In this document: piece after piece, positions 58,157 through 60,961 of the stretch
Numbering within the stretch: position 1 is the first letter of the stretch
Layout of the letters: every line of letters starts with the position of its first letter
Origin: an uncultured Roseovarius sp.
Lineage (GTDB): Bacteria; Pseudomonadota; Alphaproteobacteria; Rhodobacterales; Rhodobacteraceae
DNA length: 64,000 bases
Assembly: GCF_947489715.1 (NCBI RefSeq)
Contig: NZ_CANLER010000001.1
Coordinates: 186,001 to 250,000 of the forward strand
Reading direction: 5' to 3'
Position numbers and translations under genes: made by a program
The notes under the pieces: generated by a model
Seen by the model: the letters and a program-made list of their open reading frames with translations, nothing else
The model's database searches: none
Told to the model about the DNA's origin: nothing

Positions 58157-59293
58157 ATGAGCCAAGGTTTTCCTGAATCCGAATTTCAAACACGCACAAC
58201 CGCAGCGCAGGCACGCATGGGCGAGGCCGGACTGGCCGCGATCCTGCTGACGACAGAGCCGGAAATTCGCTATTTTACCGGCTATTTGACTCGCTTTTGG
58301 GAAAGCCCCAGTCGGCCTTGGTTTCTGATCGTTCCTGCCAGCGGGAAGCCGGTGGCGGTCATTCCATCAATTGGTGCGGCTTTGATGGGAAAAACCTGGG
58401 TTGATGATATCCGAACCTGGTCTGCGCCCGAGCCTGCTGACGATGGGGTAACACTGCTTGCTGCGGCGCTGCGCGAGCTGGCTGCAGAAGGCAAGGTCGG
58501 CCTGCCTTCGGGGGCGGAAAGCCATTTGCGGATGCCGCTGACCGATTTCGAAAGGGTCAAGGCCGCCGCCGGGATGGAGTTCACCGATGACCGTGGCATC
58601 GTTGCTACGCTGCGCATGGTCAAATCCGCCGCCGAAATCGAAAAGATCTCTGCGATCTGCGCAATAGCAGGACGGGCCTTTGGCCGGGTAGGCGAGATTG
58701 CACGCGAGGGCGTGCCGTTGACGCAGGTTTTCCGAGACTTTCAGCGCCTGTTGCTTGAAGAGGGGGCCGATTGGGTGCCTTACCTCTCGGGCGGCGCGGA
58801 TCAGGACGGGTATGGCGATGTTATCTCTCCTGCCAGCCATGCGCCTTTGCGGACTGGTGATGTGATGATGTTGGATACCGGCGCGGTGTTGGATGGCTAT
58901 TTCTGCGACTACGATAGAAATTTCGCGATCAGTCAGGCAAGTGATGCCGCGAAGAAGGGCCATGCGCGTCTGATCGAAGCAACGCATGCGGGGCTGGAAG
59001 CAGCCCGCGTCGGCGCGCGTGCCAGTGATGTCTGGAAGGCGATGGCGGATATTGTCGGCGGGGGTGAAGGCGTCGGTCGTATGGGGCACGGGCTGGGTAT
59101 GCAGCTGACGGAAGGCCTGTCGCTTACATCGAAAGATCATACGATCCTGCAAGCGGGTATGGTGATCACGCTTGAGCCTGGGGTAGGGACCGGAGCAGAA
59201 ACCATGATGGTTCACGAAGAGAATATCGTGATCGAGGCGTCTGGTCCAAGACTGCTGTCCCCCTTGGCCACGGCTGAACTGCCGGTTATCTGA
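58157..59293 (+). CDS. M24 family Xaa-Pro peptidase-like hydrolase
   Basis: A 378-residue pita-bread enzyme with an intact dinuclear metal site: Asp240 and Asp251 (MMLDTGAVLDGYFCDYDR), His311 (MGHGLG), Glu340 (TLEPGV) and a Glu at 354-355. It therefore probably cleaves a peptide or amide bond, unlike the metal-free homologue at 27.5 kb. GAGGGAG is seven bases ahead of the ATG. It is translated close behind the ammonia-lyase. Confidence 0.88.
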   Translation: MSQGFPESEFQTRTTAAQARMGEAGLAAILLTTEPEIRYFTGYLTRFWESPSRPWFLIVPASGKPVAVIPSIGAALMGKTWVDDIRTWSAPEPADDGVTLLAAALRELAAEGKVGLPSGAESHLRMPLTDFERVKAAAGMEFTDDRGIVATLRMVKSAAEIEKISAICAIAGRAFGRVGEIAREGVPLTQVFRDFQRLLLEEGADWVPYLSGGADQDGYGDVISPASHAPLRTGDVMMLDTGAVLDGYFCDYDRNFAISQASDAAKKGHARLIEATHAGLEAARVGARASDVWKAMADIVGGGEGVGRMGHGLGMQLTEGLSLTSKDHTILQAGMVITLEPGVGTGAETMMVHEENIVIEASGPRLLSPLATAELPVI

Positions 59294-59747
59294 GGGCAAA
59301 CTCCAATAACGGCAATGTGCGTCCGGGCAGTGAGCCTGAGGGTGCTGTGCCGATTAAACGGGCACCCATATGTTGGTAGAAGGACGCCGCTTGCGGATCC
59401 GCTTCGATCAGAAGGCGCGTCGCGGACATGCTGCGCGCCGATAATACACACCAATCAAAAAGGCATCGGCCTGCGCCCGTGCCGATGAAGGGTGGGTCGA
59501 CAAAAAGTTTGAGCAGGTTGGCATCGTCGCCTTCGCGGGCAACCTGCGCCATACCGACCAGTTGACCGTCCAGTTTGATCGCGGCCAACCGGGTAGAGAT
59601 GACATCCTGGGGCGTGACCGTCAACTCATCTTTGCAGGCCGCTATAAATTCGCTGTCATATCCCCAATGGGCTTTGGACCGCATGTTGAGCGCCGAAAGT
59701 GCATCAAGCTCTAAGGGGCGAGGCGCGCGGATTTCGAAATCAGTCAT
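59286..59747 (-). CDS. GNAT family N-acetyltransferase
   Basis: A 153-residue acetyltransferase. Beta-4 and the CoA loop are in LLKLFVDPPFIGTGAGRCLFDW, where the usual Q/RxxGxG/A reads GTGAGR. The C-terminal part EADPQAASFYQHMGARLIG is typical. Substrate unknown. It overlaps the end of the convergent M24 gene by eight bases. Confidence 0.85.
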   Translation of the reverse strand: MTDFEIRAPRPLELDALSALNMRSKAHWGYDSEFIAACKDELTVTPQDVISTRLAAIKLDGQLVGMAQVAREGDDANLLKLFVDPPFIGTGAGRCLFDWCVLSARSMSATRLLIEADPQAASFYQHMGARLIGTAPSGSLPGRTLPLLEFALR

Positions 59748-59788: not shown

Positions 59789-59817
59789 AAAAAAAGGGCC
59801 GAGCATTAAGCTCGGCC
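59789..59817 (-). terminator. Rho-independent terminator
   Basis: GGCCGAGC and GCTCGGCC pair perfectly around a five-base loop and are followed on the minus strand by C and seven Ts. It is 150 bases past the lysR stop and may end the lysR message, the proposed small RNA, or both. Confidence 0.85.
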
Positions 59818-59890
59818 TTAGTCCAACAGGGAGGTATGATGGTGAACCGCCTCTCGGCTATCACCGTCAGGAGTTGAATTAGGCATCGAA
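59789..59890 (-). ncRNA. Probable small RNA ending in a Rho-independent terminator
   Basis: Reading the minus strand, a hairpin (GGTGA/TCACC enclosing GCC-GAGA-GGC with a GNRA tetraloop, 59841-59865) is followed by a single-stranded stretch with ATACCTCCCTG. Then comes a perfect eight-pair GGCCGAGC/GCTCGGCC stem (59797-59817) and seven Ts. CCTCCC is complementary to a ribosome-binding site. The layout is that of an Hfq-type sRNA or of a 3' UTR-derived sRNA of the lysR gene just upstream. The 5' end is unknown. A 44-codon frame also covers 59818-59952 but has no ribosome-binding site. Confidence 0.45.
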
Positions 59891-59936
59891 AGTGAGTCGT
59901 TCAAGAACAATAATGCCGCACCCGCAGCATTGCCGG

Positions 59937-59953
59937 TATGCAATTTGTGCATA
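59937..59953. repeat. 6-bp inverted repeat behind the lysR gene
   Basis: TATGCA and TGCATA are separated by five bases, 14 bases past the lysR stop and 70 bases ahead of the proposed small RNA hairpin. It could be part of a promoter or a binding site for that RNA. Confidence 0.3.
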
Positions 59954-59966
59954 TCGACACTAAAAT

Positions 59967-60872
59967 CTACGCAACATCTTGTTTTTTAAGGTTTTTCCTG
60001 TAGATGATGATTTCTTCCTGAACAAAGTCGCGGAAGGCGGCAATGCGCTTGGAATGCCGTAATTCCTCGGGGTAGGCTAAAAATACGGGGACTTCGACCG
60101 ATTCTACCTCGGGTAGAACGGGGACAAGCTGTGGGAAGTCATTGATCAGGTAGTCCGGCAAGACCCCGATTCCGAGATTATTCAGCACGCTTTGCAACAC
60201 GCCATAGTAGTTGTTGACCGTCAACAATGACGGAATATCGTGGGTCATCAGTTCATTTACCAGCACTGCACCGGCGCCAACTTGTGCCGATCGGGGGTTT
60301 TGACAAATCAGGCGATGGTCGTGCAGGTCAGTCGGGCTTTGTGGCATCGGGTGCGTTTCAAGATAGCTTTTTGCGGCATAAAGCTTCATGTGCACGCTCA
60401 TCAGCCGTTTGCGGATCAGGTCTGCCTGGCTGGGCTCTTTCATGCGGATGGCCACGTCGGCCTCGCGCATGGGCAGGTCGAGCACTTTTTCTTCGAGCAT
60501 GAGGTCAATTTTCAGGTCGGGATAGTTTTCGTAAAGTTTGGGCAGGCGCGGGGCCAGCCAAAGTGTTCCAAAACCGATTGTTGTTGTCACGCGAAGCTCG
60601 CCAAACACTTCTTCTTCGCTGTCGCGAATGCGGGCTGTGGCGGCATCAAGGCGTTTCATCATTGCGCGGGTGGCGTCGAACAGTAATTCACCCTGTTCAG
60701 TCAGAATCAGCCCGCGTGCGTGGCGGTGAAACAACGTGGCATTCAGTGATTCTTCAAGCGCTCTGATCTGCCGTGAGACGGCGGATTGCGACAAATGCAA
60801 CTGGTCACCTGCATGTGTCAGGCTGCCAGCATCCGCCACCGCGTGAAATATTCTGAGCTTGTCCCAATCCAT
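59967..60872 (-). CDS. LysR family regulator, divergent to indolepyruvate oxidoreductase
   Basis: A 301-residue LysR protein. The winged helix is IFHAVADAGSLTHAGDQLHLSQSAVSRQIRALE. The effector domain has GELRVTTTIGFGTLWLAPRLP. The start was put at MDWDKLRIFH, where the family begins; an ATG 15 codons upstream is in frame. It is read away from the indolepyruvate oxidoreductase gene and shares a 158-base gap with an inverted repeat. Confidence 0.9.
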   Translation of the reverse strand: MDWDKLRIFHAVADAGSLTHAGDQLHLSQSAVSRQIRALEESLNATLFHRHARGLILTEQGELLFDATRAMMKRLDAATARIRDSEEEVFGELRVTTTIGFGTLWLAPRLPKLYENYPDLKIDLMLEEKVLDLPMREADVAIRMKEPSQADLIRKRLMSVHMKLYAAKSYLETHPMPQSPTDLHDHRLICQNPRSAQVGAGAVLVNELMTHDIPSLLTVNNYYGVLQSVLNNLGIGVLPDYLINDFPQLVPVLPEVESVEVPVFLAYPEELRHSKRIAAFRDFVQEEIIIYRKNLKKQDVA

Positions 60873-60961
60873 ACCCGCAACTTTCGATTCAAACTTCCAC
60901 CGCTCACGCAATAGCAAAAAACTTCAAGAGATACACCGCCCATCGCCATAAATCTGCTTGG

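Follow-up and report, generated by a model that had tools for sequence, protein, structure and literature searches.

The minus-strand segment directly downstream of a LysR-type regulator gene in this Roseovarius genome is very probably the ortholog of the small RNA (sRNA) SorY of Rhodobacter sphaeroides, with an RpoH-type promoter and a mode of action in which the ribosome-binding sites of transporter mRNAs would be blocked. It lies near the end of the window, the whole stretch of 64,000 nucleotides that was analysed, and its features, in the direction of reading, are as follows.

59967..60917, (-): LysR-type regulator gene, longest frame with a TTG start, directly upstream of the sRNA on the same strand
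59938..59952, (-): dyad ATGC-N7-GCAT, LysR-box-like (T-N11-A), centred 75 nt before the predicted start
59912..59931, (-): further dyad AATGCTGC..GCGGCATT, conserved in fewer loci, beside the -35 element (ATGC-N10-GCAT in 29/127 loci)
59900..59905, (-): -35 element CTTGAA, RpoH-like, from a relaxed pattern across loci
59877..59882, (-): -10 element CTAATT, 17 bases past the -35, from the promoter pattern across loci
59789..59870, (-): SorY-type sRNA of about 82 nt, 5' end by comparison with SorY, 3' end at the T run
59837..59869, (-): 5' hairpin with GAGA loop and covarying stem, from folding and covariation
59818..59839, (-): seed segment CATACCTCCCTGTTGGACT(AA), mostly unpaired, from alignment and pairing probabilities
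59789..59817, (-): intrinsic terminator, 8-bp stem and seven T, from a pattern scan

The Rfam SorY model (RF02651) matches window positions 59789-59867 over its full length (model positions 1-83 of 83; 53.3 bits, E 2.4e-9). Since this score falls far below the gathering cut-off of 111 bits, membership of the window copy rests on synteny and structure. The cut-off itself looks fitted to near relatives of R. sphaeroides, as a single one of 394 Rhodobacteraceae genomes exceeds it (locus L157, 115 bits, positions 1632645-1632727 of its contig 4). This match agrees with the SorY start reported for R. sphaeroides at position 1,632,642 (PMC6238624), and L157 is therefore SorY of R. sphaeroides 2.4.1. 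Our own covariance model scores the window sRNA at 94.9 bits (59789-59874). The other Rfam matches (Hrs12, sX14, sbrA, suhB, Betaproteobacteria toxic sRNA and Leu leader; E 0.56-0.96) are all under cut-off and were set aside as weak look-alikes. The sequence of the window sRNA, its structure and covariation, its synteny with SorY and its conserved promoter are established directly.

Synteny is nearly uniform. Of the 113 loci that have at least 1.3 kb of upstream sequence, 112 carry a LysR ortholog before the sRNA and on its strand, with a median of 153.5 nt between the end of the LysR match and the seed; no LysR match was found at the one exception, L035, whose sequence recurs with longer flanks as L133. 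In the window, NCBIfam LysR models match the upstream gene, none of them over its cut-off, and the true lysR start probably lies further in than the TTG. On the other side, a small acetyltransferase-like gene follows the sRNA (59286-59747, (-)) and has a match in few of the compared loci, while at several loci of the genus a Xaa-Pro peptidase-like gene directly follows the sRNA.

The sRNA opens with the hairpin 59869-59837 (TGA.GGTGA / TCACC.TCA, inner GCC-GAGA-GGC), and its GNRA-type GAGA loop at 59855-59852 is the tetraloop that a sequence-only reading of the segment had described. Folding of the 92-nt stretch 59880-59789 gives -34.8 kcal/mol, compared with -21.4 (s.d. 2.83) for dinucleotide shuffles (z -4.73, 0/200 as good). 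In 29 Roseovarius-like loci, hand-chosen from 128, six of the eight 5'-stem pairs show two-sided changes, which fill 20 cells where shuffles give 3.6 (0/500 as high), and sliding the stem partners within this alignment lowers the paired cells from 97% to 33-47%. With 98 distinct sequences, in an alignment that leans towards the structure its model was fitted to, the figure is 109 cells against 24.6 in shuffles (0/500 as high); here seven of the eight pairs show two-sided changes, a pair count reached by one of 500 shuffles. Our covariance model was trained on 20 sequences and matched all 100 loci given to it, from 107 eligible outside the training set, but these matches only place the alignment because the loci had been retrieved by the seed. 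An alignment-free measure points the same way, with the 41-nt hairpin segment folding at z < -1 in 126 of 128 loci.

Between hairpin and terminator, the unpaired segment expected there was found at 59835-59818 on the minus strand (ACCTCCCTGTTGGACTAA; core CAUACCUCCCUGUUGGACU, also given as CATACCTCCCTGTTGGACTAA), and the first seed bases, TCA, double as closing bases of the 5' hairpin. The seed is invariant across the 29-sequence alignment, but most of its bases were already fixed by the retrieval patterns; as the loci were retrieved via the seed and part of the terminator, the conservation of both is partly an effect of how the loci were selected. The terminator is as perfect as had been claimed: GGCCGAGC and GCTCGGCC form eight pairs (59817-59810 / 59804-59797), followed by one C and seven T (59795-59789). 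A pattern scan returned two terminator-like sites in 551 bases, against 0.6 in shuffles, and one of the two is this terminator. The Roseovarius genome holds three copies of the exact 14-mer CCTCCCTGTTGGAC, which is present in 59 of the 60 examined genomes of the genus, our own included. Aligning the segment across genomes had been proposed as a way to reveal covariation in both stems. The 5' stem does covary; in the terminator, helix 2 hardly varies and the retrieval pattern had fixed one arm. The earlier interpretation as an sRNA with an exposed anti-ribosome-binding-site segment accordingly gains from the 5' stem and from the lack of conservation of an overlapping frame, described below.

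That frame, of 44 codons (59952-59818), could suggest that the stretch is a small protein gene or, given that it sits where a lysR terminator would, the terminator and untranslated stretch of lysR with no sRNA at all. The frame is indeed open in the window. Across the compared loci, however, it is open for at least 40 codons in 9 of 127, and its GGACTAA stop context recurs in 7 of 127, so the protein reading was rejected and the initial judgement that no protein gene explains the segment holds. Against both versions also stand the covarying 5' hairpin, a conserved promoter at fixed spacing to the dyad, and the fact that the orthologous place in R. sphaeroides is a proven sRNA (PMC6238624). We regard an explanation without an sRNA as highly improbable.

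The SorY-type sRNA has a predicted RpoHI/RpoHII-type promoter of its own. A strict RpoH-like pattern is found in 82 of 127 loci (shuffles 1.3, at most 4; reverse strand 1), and a relaxed pattern in 123 of 127 (reverse strand 6). The L157 locus of R. sphaeroides carries CTTGAA-N17-CTAAAT, with the reported SorY start at the seventh base after it. Because CTTGAA-N17-CTAATT occupies the same place in Roseovarius, transcription is predicted to start near 59870, giving a length near 82 nt; this 5' end is the seventh base after the -10 box, as at the mapped SorY start (PMC6238624), which we placed on L157. If the predicted start is correct, the segment first ascribed to the sRNA divides in two, 59870-59789 being the sRNA and 59965-59871 its conserved dyad and its promoter region, of which the sequence-only reading made no mention. 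The Roseovarius genome has two strong RpoH matches, one of 368 bits (over the cut-off of 323) and one of 269 bits (under it); a third match to the RpoH model (142 bits) falls in a long frame that may be RpoD. In R. sphaeroides, SorY has been reported to depend on RpoHI/RpoHII, to co-purify with Hfq and to limit malate import (PMC5036791).

Upstream of the promoter, ATGC-N7-GCAT is present in 107 of 127 loci, whereas spacers of 3-6, 8, 9 and 11 give 0-4. Its T-N11-A core has the shape of LysR-type sites. In 95 of the 103 loci with both elements, the dyad centre lies 75 nt (79 loci) or 74 nt (16 loci) before the predicted start, and in the remaining eight it lies at 49, 50 or 66 nt; among the 127 loci, 20 are without the dyad and 4 without the promoter. 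Of 111 loci, one has the dyad before the lysR gene, and the overall density of the dyad is 0.13 per kb. Six hand-picked loci in which lysR is at least 800 nt away or undetected keep the dyad at 74-75 nt in five cases and at 64 nt in one. As the spacing is fixed and is kept where lysR is displaced or undetected, the dyad goes with the sRNA promoter.

These same loci bear on the origin of the transcript, for which the sequence-only reading had left two options, an independent sRNA or a product of the lysR 3' end. In the latter case the sRNA would be cut by RNase E from the lysR mRNA, much as SorX, which has the same seed, arises by processing from ompR-1 (PMC6238624). The sRNA does lie on the lysR strand, and read-through is plausible, as the only other terminator-like site past the lysR stop is the hairpin of the second dyad (59931-59912), which the pattern scan flagged and which has no proper T run. 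However, where lysR has moved away or is undetected the sRNA keeps its promoter and dyad, the promoter is conserved, and reports on the R. sphaeroides SorY describe transcription from a promoter of its own (PMC6238624) and an unprocessed RNA (PMC8307010). The conserved promoter and the reports on SorY favour an independent sRNA, and we consider RNase E processing from lysR improbable.

The adjacent LysR may control sorY via the dyad. We are evenly divided on a broader proposal, namely that sorY and lysR form a family-wide module in which LysR binds the -75 dyad (and a weaker one at about -51) as a metabolite switch atop RpoH. The sRNA locus is the one place in the Roseovarius genome with the exact extended site ATGC-N7-GCATANCGG, and on this basis the sRNA would be among the main targets of that LysR. 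With one mismatch allowed, the search gives 32 places, in which the sRNA locus is counted twice, once per strand, and the reversed control gives 13; no clean regulon emerged. No LysR-sorY link was found in the parts covered of the literature on SorY, LysR and Rhodobacter, which do not include the original SorY description, and such a link may be in print; in one paper the two names appear only among the references. The dyad at its fixed spacing would be a new element, with the same proviso that it may have been published. If the proposal is true, a single sRNA promoter combines stress with a metabolic signal, and the LysR-box-like site allows a direct test of this second, metabolic input to a stress sRNA, also in R. 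sphaeroides.

Small RNAs with CCTCCC loops pair with ribosome-binding sites. For the window sRNA, a mode of action by such pairing is well supported by analogy. Transcription would begin at the RpoH-type promoter near 59870 and end at 59789, yielding an RNA in which the 5' hairpin precedes the exposed CAUACCUCCCUGUUGGACU, with Hfq probably on the U tail. CAUACCUCCCUGUUGGACU would then pair with GGGAGG-type ribosome-binding sites of transporter mRNAs, and this would lower their translation or stability under oxidative or related stress. For Roseovarius we infer transcription, stress induction, a role for Hfq and the targets. In R. sphaeroides, SorY is a singlet-oxygen-stress sRNA that influences the stability of takP mRNA (PMC6238624).

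In a seed duplex test, one gene (L235) is the best of nine R. sphaeroides DctP genes, at -24.2 (next -21.5 and -19.0), and also the best of 29 R. sphaeroides start regions (mean -13.0, s.d. 3.1), a set without some of the DctP starts. L235 is identical in extent to the PDB 2HZK/2HZL chains (E 7.1e-255), recorded under the name SmoM, which we take to be TakP. Its predicted pairing is CCUCCCU with AGGGAGG. The Roseovarius genome holds no close takP ortholog, the best match having 37%. Its predicted best candidate target is a TRAP receptor gene of DctP type (L219), which ranks first among 162 start regions of the genome at -25.4 (mean -13.1, s.d. 3.8), a set biased by its make-up, since matches to AGGGAGG, DctP or the sRNA had brought in most of the loci. 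Both single-target calls, takP and L219, are weakened by a control of 58 GGGAGG-type start sites from other loci (mean -18.8, s.d. 4.25; some may be antisense of the sRNA itself), since 6.9% of them reach -24.2 and the same share reaches -25.4. The orthologs of L219, 26 loci spread over 25 of 60 genomes of the genus with our own among them, keep GGGAGG in 24 of 26 cases; with a mean duplex of -19.5 against -18.8, they pair no better than these control sites.

In the Roseovarius genome, AGGGAGG-N6-ATG occurs at 10 places and at none in the reversed control. For the complement AACAGGGAGG there is no clear enrichment (7 places versus 4 for the reversed control); four of the seven belong to the sRNA family or a related 3' UTR, and two of the other three precede start codons, one of a 496-aa protein (L188) and the other of a regulator that looks RpiR-type by eye (L193).

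In the literature covered, SorY is described from R. sphaeroides only. A genome-collection scan for ATACCTCCCTGTTGGACTNNGGCCGAGC gave at least 118 loci; among the 80 matches listed are Rhodobacteraceae genera, unclassified Rhodobacteraceae and Rhodobacterales or alphaproteobacterial bins, along with one labelled Alteromonadaceae at a contig edge. Removal of duplicates and of loci cut short left the 127 or 128 loci used for counts. At E 0.001, matches to the SorY model are present in 370 of 394 family genomes (in 328 of the 347 good-quality ones), counted together with what may in some cases be SorX-type copies, and in 0 of 14 control genomes. This suggests that the sRNA belongs to the core of the Rhodobacteraceae, including the roseobacters, and escapes the public RF02651 model at its cut-off. 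Class-wide, 13 of 385 genomes match at E 1e-4, five in the family (our own included) and eight outside it (33-37 bits). Five of these eight were inspected: two, from one genus, carry CCTCCCTGTTGACTT and a terminator, two carry CCTCCCTGTTTGACT and a terminator (the four are loci L284-L287), and the fifth has no such motif. This type of seed may predate the family. Homologs of SorY or SorX may be among the conserved sRNAs described for Paracoccus denitrificans (PMC5107571), and an sRNA survey of Ruegeria pomeroyi names neither in the parts covered (PMC4809877).

Several known systems share features with the Roseovarius sRNA. CcsR1-4 of R. sphaeroides carry a CCUCC-type loop. They are stress-network sRNAs that co-purify with Hfq (PMC8307010, PMC5036791) and are processed from the ccaF1 transcript (PMC8307010); the CcsR family has no entry in the Rfam match list for the window segment. 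SorX (RF02784) has the seed CCTCCCTGTTGGAC and the layout of hairpin, seed and terminator in common with the window sRNA, which raises the possibility that the latter is a SorX copy and not SorY: the seed is identical, and the SorX score of 44.2 bits is just below the cut-off of 46.6. Yet the E-value is better for SorY, and the sRNA sits behind lysR as SorY does, whereas SorX of R. sphaeroides is processed from the ompR-1 3' end (PMC6238624); no ompR-type response-regulator gene was found upstream of the window sRNA, where the gene is lysR. The same genome also has, on other contigs, two places that fit SorX better and exceed its cut-off (69.2 and 68.9 bits), and the window copy is therefore the SorY-type one. 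On these grounds the SorX identity was rejected, as a reading with very little chance of being right.

The two SorX copies are L194 (G000 C4:203416-203487) and L195 (G000 C10:87314-87385); one lies 94 nt behind the end of a response-regulator-like frame, and the other follows the end of a cytochrome c1-like frame (by eye). Elsewhere in the genome, L008 / L190 (G000 C7:195006-195088) has ACCTCCCTGTTGGGTAC and a terminator 22 nt behind a phasin-like frame (by eye) and is possibly a further 3'-UTR sRNA with the same seed. At L005 / L197 (G000 C1:377399-377479), CCTCCCTGTCAGACT is followed by a strong terminator, with 35 bits for SorX, under the cut-off, and a fourth family member in this genome is possible there. 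Another genome of the genus has the exact seed and terminator behind a universal-stress-protein-like frame (by eye; L010, G027 C27:112421), another 3'-UTR context.

The closest counterpart is SorY itself (formerly RSs1543). In R. sphaeroides it likewise has a LysR gene directly upstream on the same strand, 79% identical to ours; the promoter layout is the same, TCATACCTCCCTGTTGGACT is identical and the terminator is nearly so, whereas the 5' hairpin of the Roseovarius copy differs in sequence. The well-founded overall conclusion is that the window holds the ortholog of a known and widely conserved sRNA with one new, testable element, the LysR-box-like site at fixed spacing.
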